Source: Alphaproteobacteria bacterium 46_93_T64 (lineage in GTDB: Bacteria; Pseudomonadota; Alphaproteobacteria; Sneathiellales; Sneathiellaceae). From it: a stretch of 64,000 nt of DNA. Position 1 is the stretch's first letter. Each line of letters opens with the position of its first letter. Position numbers and translations under genes: made by a program. Where the stretch lies: the NCBI GenBank assembly GCA_002163135.1, contig MAAN01000009.1, forward strand, positions 1-64,000. The letters are read 5' to 3'. Shown piece after piece: positions 38,273 through 43,741 of the stretch. Below the pieces are notes generated by a model, which searched no databases, was not told the origin of the DNA, and saw nothing but the letters and a program-made list of their open reading frames with translations.

Positions 38273-39565
38273 TTAGGACTGTCCGTCCAACTCCTCGCGA
38301 TACTGTTTCTCAAAATCCTCTTGAATTTGACGAAGCTCACGGATGGCCGCCTGAATATCTGAGCTGTTATGAACACTTACCTCTACATGTTCACCCACGC
38401 GAGTAAGTTGACGACGGCGTGACAGTTTTCCGTCGCGCGCTACATTATTCACTTCAAACACCTCCACCGGGCGAGAGAACCCTTTTAGCGTGACAGTCTC
38501 TGGCGGATTGCAATCGATGGATCCGTTGACTAGGCTATGAGTGAGCTCATCAATCAGGATGGTATCGGGCTTCGCCCGCGCTTCTAGCCGCGCGGCCATA
38601 TTTACGGGACGTCCCAACACCGTATAATCCAGTCGCTGCGCCGAACCGAAGTTTCCCACTGTGCAAAATCCTGTGGCGATACCCATCCTGACATGCAGAC
38701 CACGTGATACCCCGCTCTTCTGCCAATGTTTCTGCATCTCAGCGATCCGAGTCTGCATTTGCAAAGCCATTTCGACACACTTCAGAGCATCCTCGCTCTC
38801 GCCGTTGCTCTCGGGGTCCCCGAAAAAAACCAGCACTGCATCGCCAATAAACTTGTCGATAGTGCCTCCATATTCAATAGCAATGGAGGCCATCTCAGAG
38901 AGATAGGAATTGATGACCGCAGCCAGTCTTTCTGGTTCAAGGCTGTCAGCGATATCGGTAAATTGAACAATATCGGATAGAAAAATGGTCAGGTTTTTCC
39001 GTGCATGGGATCGCTTCTGCGATTGATTGTCCGAGAACACAATATCGTAAATCTGTGGCGACAGATACTGCGCCAACCGGTCAGCAAGACTTTCAAGACG
39101 AGCGCTCTTCTCCTCGATGATCTCGCGATCGCGGTTCTTCTGCTCTATCAAATCTTCGCGTTCCTTACGCAGACGCCATTCATCAGTACGGTCTATAAAC
39201 TGGCCCTGCACCCCTTTGAGATAGGAAAAGTCATCATCCTCAGTGCGCGTAGACAACAAAGAAAACACGTGATCTTCACCGTTAATTTGGATATGGACTT
39301 CTGGAATGAGGACAAAGCCCTTGTCGTTTATATTGGTGATGAATTCCTCAATCTGTGCCTCCGGAACCCCCAATTGTTTCAGGACGTCGGGGAAGTAGAA
39401 ATCTGTAACATTGCCCAAAACCGGAAAAAACTTGAGAAAATTCTCGTTTGTCTTCCGAACTTTCAGGTTTCCGTCGGCGAAATAGGCAGCCGTGATGGCA
39501 TTGCGAAAATTGAAGAAACTGAGATCCACAACTTTATCACTATTGAAGAAATTCTCCAAATTCAT
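38273..39565 (-). CDS. PAS-linked adenylate/guanylate cyclase (class III), soluble
   Basis: A 430-residue protein. Residues about 14-130 form a PAS domain, then a coiled-coil linker (IEQKNRDREIIEEKSARL), and a class III cyclase domain. Catalytic features: metal-binding Asp in TIFLSDIVQFT and again in IDKFIGDAVLVFFGD, with the purine-selecting Lys in DKFIGD, and the later LDYTVLGRPVNMAARLE with transition-state residues. It should make cAMP, or possibly cGMP. There is no membrane segment. The protein immediately upstream duplicates its PAS region at roughly four of five positions. GAGGGT precedes the ATG. Confidence 0.9.
   Translation of the reverse strand: MNLENFFNSDKVVDLSFFNFRNAITAAYFADGNLKVRKTNENFLKFFPVLGNVTDFYFPDVLKQLGVPEAQIEEFITNINDKGFVLIPEVHIQINGEDHVFSLLSTRTEDDDFSYLKGVQGQFIDRTDEWRLRKEREDLIEQKNRDREIIEEKSARLESLADRLAQYLSPQIYDIVFSDNQSQKRSHARKNLTIFLSDIVQFTDIADSLEPERLAAVINSYLSEMASIAIEYGGTIDKFIGDAVLVFFGDPESNGESEDALKCVEMALQMQTRIAEMQKHWQKSGVSRGLHVRMGIATGFCTVGNFGSAQRLDYTVLGRPVNMAARLEARAKPDTILIDELTHSLVNGSIDCNPPETVTLKGFSRPVEVFEVNNVARDGKLSRRRQLTRVGEHVEVSVHNSSDIQAAIRELRQIQEDFEKQYREELDGQS
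39155..39526 (-). repeat. Duplicated PAS-region, copy in full cyclase
   Basis: Codes for 124 residues (DISFF/DLSFF to RRERD/RKERE) that match the copy at 39587-39967 at about 100 of 124 positions, counted by eye. DNA similarity is also evident, for example around the FIDRTDEW segment. Confidence 0.85.
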
Positions 39566-39583: not shown

Positions 39584-40231
39584 TTATAGTTCATTATCGC
39601 GTTCCCTACGCAGGCGCCACTCATCGGTACGGTCGATGAACTGCCCTTGCACCCCTTTGAGATAAGAGAAGTCTTCGTCTTGAGTGCGCGTTGACAGAAG
39701 AGAAAACACACGTTCCTCGCCCTTGATATTGATATGAATTTCGGGAATAAGGACAAATCCCTTGTCATTGATATTGTCAGTAAATTCCACAATCTGTGCC
39801 TCAGGAACACCCAGTTGTTTGAGGACATCAGGGAAGTAGGAAGCCGCAATATTATCCAGAACCGGAAAAAATTTGAAAAAATTCTCGTTTACTTTCTTAA
39901 CTTTCAGATCCTCATCAGCGAAATAGGCCGCTGTGATGGCATTACGAAAATTAAAAAAACTGATATCTGCAATTTCTTCGTTGTCTCTGCTCCATTGTGC
40001 GCGCTTACCGGTCACCGCTCCCCATGTAGCCACGCAATAGGGCACGCAAAAAGTGAGGAGTATTTTCCAGATCGGCGGCGTGCTACCAGACAAGAGGAGG
40101 TCTCCGTGATTGATAGCAGTCAATACGCTCCCGACCACAAAGGCGATCACGAGTGCCTTTTTCGGTGTGCCGTCACCAAAGATGAGTTGAACGGTAGAGG
40201 GCGGCGTATAATTCTGTTTACTTACAGTCAT
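39584..40231 (-). CDS. Truncated cyclase paralog: two-helix membrane domain plus PAS
   Basis: A 215-residue protein. Two transmembrane helices (about 24-41 and 54-73, with INHGDLLL and FCVPYCVATWGAV) resemble the small NrtS-type nitrate transporter family to my eye. Residues 89-215 then repeat the PAS region of the cyclase next door. The frame stops at RRERDNEL, exactly where the coiled coil and catalytic domain begin. It has no cyclase activity of its own. It could be a remnant of a NrtS-PAS-cyclase gene split by duplication, or a membrane sensor partner for the soluble cyclase. The genes are 18 bases apart. Confidence 0.78.
   Translation of the reverse strand: MTVSKQNYTPPSTVQLIFGDGTPKKALVIAFVVGSVLTAINHGDLLLSGSTPPIWKILLTFCVPYCVATWGAVTGKRAQWSRDNEEIADISFFNFRNAITAAYFADEDLKVKKVNENFFKFFPVLDNIAASYFPDVLKQLGVPEAQIVEFTDNINDKGFVLIPEIHINIKGEERVFSLLSTRTQDEDFSYLKGVQGQFIDRTDEWRLRRERDNEL
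39587..39967 (-). repeat. Duplicated PAS-region, copy in truncated paralog
   Basis: The matching duplicate of 39155-39526, offset by about 441 bases. It ends only three codons beyond the shared RTDEWRLR segment. Confidence 0.85.
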
Positions 40232-40521: not shown

Positions 40522-42567
40522 ATGGGAGAGAATTTGCTGCAATTAAAAGCCGTGGGTGTAACCGTTTATGAGGGACCGAATATATTCGCACCCTATCCAG
40601 TTATTCGGTACCGTTTTCAACTGATCGGAGCTGAAAATCATGTATCGCCTAAACTAATGTCAGATTTTACAAAGCTTATTTCGGAACCCGGTCGGGCTAA
40701 AGTTAATGTGTCATTCGAGGATGATTACGTTGCAAGCCAGCCAGAACGAGTATTATTTCAGCTATATTCTGAAAATGTATTAGAGTTACAACGCCAAGCT
40801 GGCGACGAAAAAGATGTTGCGCTAATTCGCCGAGATCCTGAGACCAAAAATTGGGAATGTATCCTACCTTTTTCGATTAAGATCGTTGCTCGTAAAGCTG
40901 CGACGGAATGTTATCTGCTCCTCAATCAAGTTTTAGAAAAGGGATTGGATAGAGACACATTTGCTCTTCTTCAAAAGACCCTTCCTCCAATTCAAATGAG
41001 ACTGCGGAATTTATTTGATACCTATGATTTAGCCGAACCAACGACAGAATTTATCCGCATTGCCAACCGCAGGAAAATTCCGTTCAAACGCCTTCCAGGT
41101 AAAAAACAGGTATTGCATTTCGGATATGGTAAGAATAGACGAAGTTCAAACAGGGTTATTTTGTCAACAGAAAGCCACTTAGCTGCTGAAATCGCCAATA
41201 ATAAAGAACTTACAACCAAGGTTTTGGCGGAGGCAGGGTTACCGGTGGCACGGCAAATCATTGTTCGTAGCGAACAAGGGGCACTAAAAGCTGCAAAGAA
41301 TATTGGCTACCCTGTCGCTATTAAACCTCTTGTAGGCATGATGGGAAATGGTGTCTCCCCGAAAGTTACTGCTGCTGAAGATGTACCAGAAGCTTTTGCG
41401 AATGCGGGTATAAATAACAATCAAGTAATTGTGGAAGAGCATATAATAGGTGAAGATTATCGACTTCAAGTAATCGGCGAAAAATATGCCTTCGGATTGT
41501 TACGGACCCGCGCTCAAGTAATTGGTGACGGAGTAAGTTCGATAGGCGAATTGGCCGAGATTATAAATGACGAGCCTTGGCGCAGAGATCACAGGGGAAA
41601 CCTGATTTACGGACTTAAACAAACAGAGAGTTCACGCCGATGCATGGATAAACAGGGAGCTGACTGGAATACAATTCCTGCTAAAGGGGAAGTGATATTC
41701 CTGCAGGATGTTGCCAATACAAGTCAAGGAGGCGGCTTTCAAGATTTGAAGGGAAACATTCATCCGGCTAACGTTAGGCTTGCCGAGATGGCTGCACGTG
41801 TTGTTGGACTTCAAATAGCCGGCGTTGATTTTCTAACGAACGATATTACGAAACCGTATTGGGAAACTGGCGGGAAAATTTGCGAAGTGAACATCCAGGC
41901 TGGAATAGATGGCATGTCACCCGATCCTGAAAACTCAGGTTTTCATTTTGAACAGGTATTTTCATTGATGTTTCCAGAGGGGACGCGCACTGCTATTCCA
42001 ATGGTTGTCATTTTGGAAGACGGCCCTTCAAAAACTGTTGCGGCCCTGAATGATGTTTTTAAAAGTCAGAATTTGATGGTTGGACGAAAAACGACGACAG
42101 AAGTGAGCATTGGTAACAATTTACTAGTTGACGTGATGGGCAATGCTGCTTCCGAAGCCGTCCTTTGGAACCCAATGATAGATGCAGCTATCATACAAGA
42201 AACCGCAAAGAGCATTGAAGCATACGGATTAGCTTATTCAGTCAGTGAATGTGTAATATTGCCGCGAATGCCATCAAATAATGATCCTGAAACTGTGAAG
42301 AAAATTCTTTCCACTCTCACTCAGACTGCTGTTCAGGCAGTTGTTTATAACACCGATGACAAACAATTATCCGACTGGGTTAGATCTAATGATCAGGAAA
42401 GATATTATCCCGTGTCATTAACAACAATTTCTGAGGTTTTCTGTGATCCTCAATATATTGAGAAAATAATTGGCCGCAAAGAAAAAACCGAACAAATGGC
42501 AATTCTGCTGGCCTTGCGGGCGGCAGAGATAATGGATATCCCACTTAGTGCGAGTTCATTTGACTAA
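40522..42567 (+). CDS. Cyanophycin synthetase-like ATP-grasp protein with degenerate Mur-ligase half
   Basis: A 681-residue protein. Residues 1-170 match the N-terminal region of cyanophycin synthetase, 197-480 its ATP-grasp domain (LHFGYGKNRRSSNRV, GYPVAIKPLVGMMGNGV, EEHIIGEDYRLQVIG, and a metal site near EVNIQAGIDGM). From about 490 the sequence still aligns with the Mur-ligase central domain (KTTTEVSIGNNLLVDVMG, WNPMIDAAIIQETAKS), but the P-loop expected as GTNGKTT is LEDGPSKT, and the C-terminal ligase part is missing. Normal cyanophycin synthetase has about 870 residues. The protein should have one active ligase site at most. No cyanophycinase is nearby. Product unknown; a shorter peptide is possible. 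Confidence 0.85.
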   Translation: MGENLLQLKAVGVTVYEGPNIFAPYPVIRYRFQLIGAENHVSPKLMSDFTKLISEPGRAKVNVSFEDDYVASQPERVLFQLYSENVLELQRQAGDEKDVALIRRDPETKNWECILPFSIKIVARKAATECYLLLNQVLEKGLDRDTFALLQKTLPPIQMRLRNLFDTYDLAEPTTEFIRIANRRKIPFKRLPGKKQVLHFGYGKNRRSSNRVILSTESHLAAEIANNKELTTKVLAEAGLPVARQIIVRSEQGALKAAKNIGYPVAIKPLVGMMGNGVSPKVTAAEDVPEAFANAGINNNQVIVEEHIIGEDYRLQVIGEKYAFGLLRTRAQVIGDGVSSIGELAEIINDEPWRRDHRGNLIYGLKQTESSRRCMDKQGADWNTIPAKGEVIFLQDVANTSQGGGFQDLKGNIHPANVRLAEMAARVVGLQIAGVDFLTNDITKPYWETGGKICEVNIQAGIDGMSPDPENSGFHFEQVFSLMFPEGTRTAIPMVVILEDGPSKTVAALNDVFKSQNLMVGRKTTTEVSIGNNLLVDVMGNAASEAVLWNPMIDAAIIQETAKSIEAYGLAYSVSECVILPRMPSNNDPETVKKILSTLTQTAVQAVVYNTDDKQLSDWVRSNDQERYYPVSLTTISEVFCDPQYIEKIIGRKEKTEQMAILLALRAAEIMDIPLSASSFD

Positions 42568-42751: not shown

Positions 42752-43741
42752 ATGTTGTTACGACCTATTCGATATTTGATTTACCTGCTTGCCGCTCTAT
42801 CACTATTTGCATCTAGTTCGGCCCTAGCAGCATCGGGTAAACTGGTCCTTTATACCTCTCAACTGCCGGAAGATGCAGAACGTACTATTCAGGCATTTTC
42901 AAAACATTCTCCCGACATCCAGGTCTCTTGGCTGCGTAATGGCACCAGTAAAGTGATGTCACTACTGCAAGAGGAAATAGCTCTGGGAGATCCAAAACCG
43001 GATGTCATTCTGATCGCTGATAGCATGAACATGCAATGGCTCAAGCAACGAGGCCACCTATGGGCCTATACAGAGGCTCCCGTTAAAGGATTTCCGGATT
43101 CAATCGTCGACCCTGACTGGACCTATTTTGGCACGAAGTTCATCACAACGTTAATTGCTTATCATACCAGTGCTGCAAAACCGGTCGCCTGGTCGGATCT
43201 TCTACGGAGCCCGGCACGGGATCAGATTATTATGCCCAATCCACGCTATTCAGGTGGTGCGACAATTCACCTTGGCACGTTATCGATGGCTCCCGATTTG
43301 GGGTGGTCGTTTTTTGAAAAACTGGCCAACAATGGCGGTATAGCGGTACGTGGTAACGGTAATGCCATAAAGTCTGTCGTGCAGGGTGACAAGCAGTATG
43401 CCATTGTTGTTGATTTCCTTGCGCGAAATTACAAACGTAAAGGTGCCCCCATTGACTATGTTTTCCCGCGTGAAGGCGTCAGCGCAATTACCGAACCTAT
43501 AGCCATCCTGAAAACGGCAAAAAACAAGGAAGCAGCGATGGCGTTCGTAGATTTCATCTTATCAGATGAAGGCCAGCAACTAGTCTCCCTTCAGGGCATG
43601 ATACCGGCAAAGAACGGTATATCGCCGCCAGCAGGCTTTCCCAGTATCAGTAAGATAAAAGTTATTCCCAGTAATATTCCCCAGATACTAAAAATCGACG
43701 ACCGAAACAAAGAACGATTTGCTGATTTATTTGGTGGGTAG
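42752..43741 (+). CDS. Periplasmic binding protein, ferric-iron type, paired with a sensor kinase
   Basis: A 329-residue extracellular solute-binding protein of the FbpA/AfuA-like family. A signal peptide (hydrophobic LIYLLAALSLFASSS, cleavage after ALA-AS) precedes LVLYTSQLPEDAERTIQAF. NPRYSGGATIHLGTL and ISTEP-like AITEPIAILKTAKNKEAAMAF are family features. GAGGAAC precedes ATG 42752. There are no permease or ATPase genes beside it; three bases later the hybrid kinase begins. It therefore more likely presents a ligand to the kinase than feeds a transporter. Confidence 0.88.
   Translation: MLLRPIRYLIYLLAALSLFASSSALAASGKLVLYTSQLPEDAERTIQAFSKHSPDIQVSWLRNGTSKVMSLLQEEIALGDPKPDVILIADSMNMQWLKQRGHLWAYTEAPVKGFPDSIVDPDWTYFGTKFITTLIAYHTSAAKPVAWSDLLRSPARDQIIMPNPRYSGGATIHLGTLSMAPDLGWSFFEKLANNGGIAVRGNGNAIKSVVQGDKQYAIVVDFLARNYKRKGAPIDYVFPREGVSAITEPIAILKTAKNKEAAMAFVDFILSDEGQQLVSLQGMIPAKNGISPPAGFPSISKIKVIPSNIPQILKIDDRNKERFADLFGG

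Follow-up and report, generated by a model that had tools for sequence, protein, structure and literature searches.

The window analysed here, 64,000 nucleotides from a genome of the Sneathiellaceae, encodes an intact protein that consists of an N domain, an ATP-grasp (G) domain and a truncated Mur-like (M) domain and that is related to cyanophycin synthetase. Its alignments show that it is built like CphA2. We lean towards the view, held with some reserve, that it is a one-site ATP-grasp peptide ligase from the cyanophycin-synthetase family that does not work on home-made β-Asp-Arg.

Domain architecture and the ATP-grasp site

The gene (40522-42567, + strand) is an open frame of 681 codons with zero internal stops, and its product of 681 amino acids starts at ATG 40522 or possibly at TTG 40534. 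A sequence-only reading of this DNA had called the product a cyanophycin-synthetase-like ligase, and NCBIfam scores, phmmer and fold superposition all agree with this. The best model match is to cyanophycin synthetase NF010623 with 339 bits (cut-off 877), and the score against the CphA1 model TIGR02068 is 312.6 bits, below the cut-off of 850; the protein is thus homologous to cyanophycin synthetase, but far under family level. With phmmer, residues 11-576 align to two CphA1 chains, other chains over shorter stretches. An AlphaFold2 model (mean pLDDT 82, pTM 0.75) could be superposed on CphA1 chains with Z 24.0-30.1 over 630-641 residues and on CphA2 chains with Z 26.4-27.5 over 566-600 residues (20-22% identity in the structural alignments with CphA2); since the alignment used for prediction had 16 rows (the window protein, its three closest relatives and 12 others), the model may lean toward the CphA1 shape. 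In comparison with the CphA1 chains and the reference row, about 200-250 residues are lacking; the last part of the ligase is missing, as had been supposed.

The G domain covers about residues 161-487 (41002-41982, + strand; borders approximate). By alignment, and with the roles given for TeCphA1 in PMC9427784, K228 (41203-41205) corresponds to K220 at the β-phosphate of ATP, K268 (41323-41325) to K261 at the α-phosphate, R314 (41461-41463) to R309, which binds the C-terminal carboxylate of the chain, R328 (41503-41505) to R323, D436 (41827-41829) to the Mg2+ ligand D431, and E455, which shares the stretch 41884-41892 with N457, to the Mg2+ ligand E450. The equivalents of K220, K261, R309, R323, D431, E450 and N452 are present in all eleven Sneathiella proteins. 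N452, the counterpart of N457, has a role in ATP-grasp enzymes. Loss of the metal ligands on alignment had been named as the finding that would speak against the sequence-only reading; D436 and E455 are both present. N394 has an equivalent in 10 of the 11 Sneathiella proteins and S396 in nine. The window copy also retains N399, S401 and Glu223, the equivalent of E215, which contacts an arginine side chain in TeCphA1 (PMC9427784), so that Arg-containing substrates are conceivable. Across the Sneathiella family the E215 position is variable (E, K, S, A, L or M).

The ATP-grasp half had been described as looking complete. This is true of the ATP and Mg2+ residues, but two residues that serve catalysis or substrate binding in CphA1 are replaced. 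The phosphate loop VGMMGNG (residues 271-277, 41332-41352) stands in place of DGNHGRG, with Met274 for CphA1 His267, and D463 (41908-41910) occupies the position of Arg458, which in TeCphA1 binds the α-carboxylate of the incoming aspartate (PMC9427784). His267 is replaced in all eleven Sneathiella proteins and Arg458 in nine; the arginine is kept in two forms of 605-610 amino acids and also in L037, a fragment from a Sneathiellales MAG that is 42% identical to window residues 375-674. Among 107 other rows, taken as stop-to-stop frames and sorted by a regular expression for the M P-loop, the 82 with this P-loop keep His267 in 77 cases and Arg458 in all 82. The 25 rows that lack it (24 with a residue at each column) keep His267 in none and Arg458 in six; they include three fragments or partials and seven sequences like N-acetylglutaminylglutamine synthetase, and some long ones (803-945 amino acids) may carry variant P-loops. 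Two mixed cases were seen: Pelagibius has two tandem CphA-like proteins of 895-899 amino acids with an intact M P-loop and Lys at His267 (L097:3177-8700), and a 742-residue CphA-like protein of the Geminicoccaceae (L094:5983-8211) is devoid of the M P-loop, keeps HxxEH and Arg458 and has Met at His267.

The N domain (about residues 1-160, 40522-41001, + strand) is devoid of HxxEH, the primer-protease motif of CphA1; this primer-making motif is absent in all eleven Sneathiella proteins, in alignment columns that are unsure at identity this low. In the M-domain remnant (41983-42567, + strand) the P-loop, ETARGG and Asp-His are lost and the C-terminal part is absent. EDGPSKT (residues 499-505, 42016-42036) aligns with GTNGKT, the P-loop of CphA1, just as the sequence-only reading had it, and the P-loop, the RGG of ETARGG and Asp-His are absent from every one of the eleven proteins. 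The M domain of SuCphA1 is reported to be inactivated by D585A H586A (PMC9262961). That the second half of the window protein is inactivated, as had been proposed, is borne out by the additional loss of Asp-His and ETARGG.

Relation to CphA2 and other known ligases

CphA2 is described as an enzyme with which cyanobacteria recycle the dipeptides of cyanophycin (PMC9262961, PMC10206079). According to PMC9427784 it has neither the M P-loop nor the M lid, in agreement with what is seen in the window protein. Structures have been solved for the enzymes from Gloeothece citriformis (7ta5) and Stanieria sp. (8fxh/8fxi). The window protein shares with CphA2 the N, G and M core, the shortened M domain lacking the P-loop, the absence of HxxEH, which PMC9262961 gives as a CphA2 feature, and an ATP-grasp site with the ATP and Mg2+ residues in place. 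Alignment with the two solved enzymes bears out the CphA2-like layout that had been suggested, with the reservation that the protein need not equal CphA2. Both solved enzymes are also devoid of His267 (Lys instead) and of Arg458 (Phe or Tyr); the losses thus agree with a one-site mechanism in which free aspartate is not added. For the same reason we dropped the loss of His267 and Arg458 as proof that the protein is not CphA2.

The substrate loops are different. The solved CphA2s have (I/A)GHKGIG and NAAPG(I/V)(F/Y)MHLKP where the window protein has VGMMGNG and NIQAGIDG, a comparison that is our own, unpublished criterion and covers two CphA2 sequences. CphA2 has a histidine one position before 267, whereas the Sneathiella loops are without histidine both there and at 267, and it has Asp at the E215 position, where the window copy has Glu223. 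Furthermore, CphA2 is a cyanobacterial enzyme whose dipeptides come from degraded cyanophycin, for which cyanophycin and cyanophycinase are required, and the window protein comes from a Sneathiellaceae genome with neither a CphA1 above the cut-off nor an S51 match, and without any recognised source of β-Asp-Arg. In the best tree of 73 G domains, for which the CphA1 rows were thinned to every third one and two fragments and L037 were left out, the eleven Sneathiella proteins form one clade (support 95/89) and CphA2 is found elsewhere; several branches were flagged as long by the tree program. The AU test did not reject a union of Sneathiella and CphA2 (p-AU 0.33; 0.18 when restricted to the nine long forms). 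An origin independent of CphA2, hinted at by the best tree, is unsupported by this test and is not claimed. Because the protein is non-cyanobacterial, its substrate loops differ, the tree separates it from CphA2 without rejection of the union, and partner genes are missing, we do not file it as CphA2.

A classification of CphA2/CphA2'-like proteins was reportedly put forward by Fueser and Steinbuechel in 2007. The names CphA1 and CphA2 are also used in Sideroxydans (PMC5178258). A parallel by description is Bacillus horikoshii 20a, for which three tandem CphA-like genes with a CphA2-like loss of residues are reported (PMC5532821): these proteins, too, are CphA-like, non-cyanobacterial, tandem and without the M-site residues. 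In contrast to the Sneathiellaceae genome, that strain has genes for cyanophycinase and isoaspartyl dipeptidase, neither of which was found above the cut-off here, and its proteins are said to keep aspartate residues of which the window protein has lost two (PMC5532821). With CphA1 the window protein has the overall fold and seven G-domain residues in common, but it has neither the M active-site and N-domain motifs nor His267 and Arg458, and it stays under the TIGR02068 cut-off. N-acetylglutaminylglutamine synthetase has a related ATP-grasp domain that is altered at the same two positions; the window protein, however, reaches only 135.3 bits against TIGR03103 (cut-off 569), and the N-acetylglutaminylglutamine synthetases form a separate clade (100/100).

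Distribution, genomic surroundings and partner genes

The profile built from the eleven proteins, applied at E 1e-60 to 25 genomes of the taxonomic family, gave 11 matches, all in frames of 621-695 amino acids; we conclude that no full-length CphA1 is present in these 25 genomes. The ligase family occurs in eight of the 25, the source genome included, or in five of the 18 more complete ones (the other seven miss 90% completeness and 5% contamination). The nine long proteins are 37-70% identical to each other in the G domain, 9-43% in the N domain and 17-44% in the M domain. Further afield, the family profile matched 43 of 385 evenly drawn alphaproteobacterial genomes at E 1e-40, counting the three Sneathiella genomes that supplied the profile. 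From 27 of the loci returned in this draw 29 frames were taken, of which 23, two of them fragments, are without the M P-loop. A group of seven resembles N-acetylglutaminylglutamine synthetase. His267 and Arg458 are absent from all seven (Gln in six and Met in one at the former position, Ala in seven at the latter), and the two members checked against TIGR03103 are both above its cut-off. If this annotation is right, the ATP-grasp domain makes other peptides too. Confirmed relatives were obtained neither from a single-sequence scan of genome contigs nor from an alignment scan of viral contigs; from an alignment scan of genome contigs the best 80 of 542 loci were used. Among the plasmid matches listed, those with an annotation are named cphA, gshAB, ngg, 'CapA family protein', a LacI-family regulator beside ngg, and hypothetical protein; a plasmid of Microvirga ossetica (NZ_CP016620.1:355176-356513) has a CphA-like ATP-grasp stretch labelled CapA family protein.

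The ligase had been called an orphan. This applies to the window locus but not to the genome as a whole (G000), which has two further such genes in tandem on contig 24. In five genomes the ligase lies beside a gene for an MFS transporter, a 3-hydroxybutyrate dehydrogenase (which scores above the cut-off of its NCBIfam model), or both. In the slot between these two genes, G000 and G023 have two ligases each, G005 and G002 one each; G002 has an additional gene there, and G000 has two opposite-strand frames before the dehydrogenase. In all four genomes (G000 contig 24, G002, G005 and G023) the paralogs lie downstream of the MFS gene on the same strand. In G017 only the dehydrogenase side is visible, since the contig ends past the ligase; in G010 ligase and MFS gene sit at the ends of different contigs, and G015 and G018 carry the ligase at a site away from the MFS gene. 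The ligase-free genomes G003 and G006 have the MFS and dehydrogenase genes directly adjacent, about 120 bases apart. The flanking proteins are 71-88% identical to those of contig 24, and the slot ligases are 27-55% identical among themselves. MFS orthologs (at least 75% identity) occur in ten of the 25 genomes, namely all eight with a ligase and two without; the other 15 have neither ortholog nor ligase, and therefore common ancestry can explain the co-occurrence. As a strict partner the MFS transporter was rejected: the linkage is local, with the ligase elsewhere in G015 and G018 and the MFS gene without ligase in G003 and G006.

Two side observations concern neighbours of ligase genes of the family. 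Between tandem ligases and dehydrogenase gene, L012:5764-7615 has two frames whose C-termini look PEP-CTERM-like by eye. The Arg458-keeping forms of 605-610 amino acids (L027:6642-10575, L028:2771-6631) adjoin a small protein with HD-like motifs and a dioxygenase-like protein, again by eye, a pair reminiscent of PhnY/PhnZ-type oxygenases; a search of NCBIfam at 1e-10 gave no match for the small protein of L027.

The window copy is not in the MFS/dehydrogenase slot and has no MFS neighbour; its closest relatives are genes of G002 and G010 (tree support 98/94). It is surrounded by genes for an isochorismatase, a DJ-1/PfpI-AraC regulator, a cyclase, a solute-binding protein, a CHASE histidine kinase and Dus; as a clue to the substrate these six were considered and gave none. 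For the solute-binding protein gene downstream of the ligase (42752-43741, + strand), a search of the 24 other family genomes at E 1e-40 gave no match. The surroundings therefore look strain-variable, and this gene and the ligase may lie within a strain-variable stretch. Just upstream of the ligase, a frame of 215 amino acids without a cyclase domain (39584-40231, - strand) adjoins the nucleotide cyclase gene (38273-39565, - strand); its residues 83-213 are 77% identical to cyclase residues 8-138, and it is a partial tandem duplicate of the cyclase.

The sequence-only reading had seen no cyanophycinase next to the ligase and had proposed a genome search for cphA, cphB and iadA. Nothing was found above the cut-offs: the source genome gave no CphA1 (TIGR02068) above cut-off, no S51 cyanophycinase, no IaaA (PF01112) and, for IadA, no more than 20.3 bits (cut-off 331). 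S51 cyanophycinases were also not found above the cut-off of 23.9 in the 25 family genomes, with a single 18.8-bit match in G016. The source genome is a draft of 41 contigs (99.85% complete), and an unrelated degrading enzyme would escape such searches. Many genomes are reported to have incomplete cyanophycin gene sets (PMC10206079), and cyanophycin synthetases without cyanophycinase are reported as well (PMC5178258); the missing partners are thus a weak argument.

Proposed reaction and competing explanations

The window enzyme is probably active, with reaction steps that, by analogy, would be carried over from CphA1. The G domain would bind MgATP and, close to R314 and R328, transfer phosphate to the carboxylate of a substrate; an amine of the second substrate would then attack the acyl phosphate and an amide bond would be formed. 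The two arginines would keep the acyl phosphate in place, and a different acceptor or donor would be selected through the changed positions 267 and 458. The M domain would serve as a scaffold without catalytic activity; the N domain is devoid of its primer-cutting motif. The substrate would be something other than home-made β-Asp-Arg, and the product may be a short peptide, an amino-acid conjugate or another polymer; a different polymer is possible, a short peptide equally so. Not everything speaks for a one-site ligase with another substrate: L037 and the two short forms keep Arg at 458, the fast drift could reflect relaxed constraint, retention of Glu223, N399 and S401 leaves room for Arg-containing substrates, and the missing partner genes count for little in a draft genome, given the incomplete sets reported elsewhere.

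The protein could instead have true CphA2 activity, taking up external β-Asp-Arg dipeptides from the cyanophycin of others and polymerising them to cyanophycin. The same domain losses, the same two changed G-site positions, the fold match over 566-600 residues (Z 26.4-27.5), the retained Glu223 and a common clade that is not rejected (p-AU 0.33) are consistent with this. Nevertheless we regard it as unlikely, because the histidine of GHKGIG is missing from the Sneathiella loops, NIQAGIDG is unlike NAAPG(I/V)(F/Y)MHLKP, the E215 position varies across the family and the best tree puts CphA2 elsewhere; the genome also has no cyanophycinase, CphA1, IaaA or IadA above cut-off, although such gaps are known elsewhere. 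A narrower form of our preferred explanation is a peptide ligase for small molecules of the kind of N-acetylglutaminylglutamine synthetase or GshF; its product would be a defined di- or tripeptide (an osmolyte or a secreted compound) rather than a polymer. The ATP-grasp domain shared with the N-acetylglutaminylglutamine synthetase group, altered there too at 267 and 458, and the four genomes in which paralogs follow the MFS gene on its strand would fit; the 135 bits against 569 for TIGR03103, a window protein in which no GNAT domain was found, an MFS gene also present in ligase-free G003 and G006 and a window copy without MFS neighbour make this specific version improbable. Least probable, and in our opinion rather remote, is a pseudoenzyme, decaying or regulatory, that has no ligase activity. 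Several replaced active-site residues, fast drift and patchy presence point that way, but seven G-site residues are invariant in all eleven proteins at 21-55% pairwise identity, and the frames are intact.

If the window protein is a one-site ligase with a substrate of its own, it is tempting to speculate, tentatively, that the one-site Sneathiella enzymes derived from CphA have come to use another amino acid or dipeptide in place of the cyanophycin substrates and that specificity is shifting fast between species in a fixed transporter-side slot, giving new isopeptides or non-cyanophycin polymers; we consider this possible rather than likely. In view of the tandem genes reported for B. horikoshii 20a (PMC5532821), one-site CphA-like proteins beyond cyanobacteria are not new; the Sneathiella ligase family itself was not found in the open-licence papers searched. 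An annotation as 'cyanophycin synthetase' should not be taken as cyanophycin production. The window ligase is a direct biochemical test case for the roles of positions 267 and 458 in substrate choice, and the occurrence of a CphA2-like enzyme in a genome without a recognised partner gene for cyanophycin points to a use of the one-site architecture that does not involve cyanophycin turnover.
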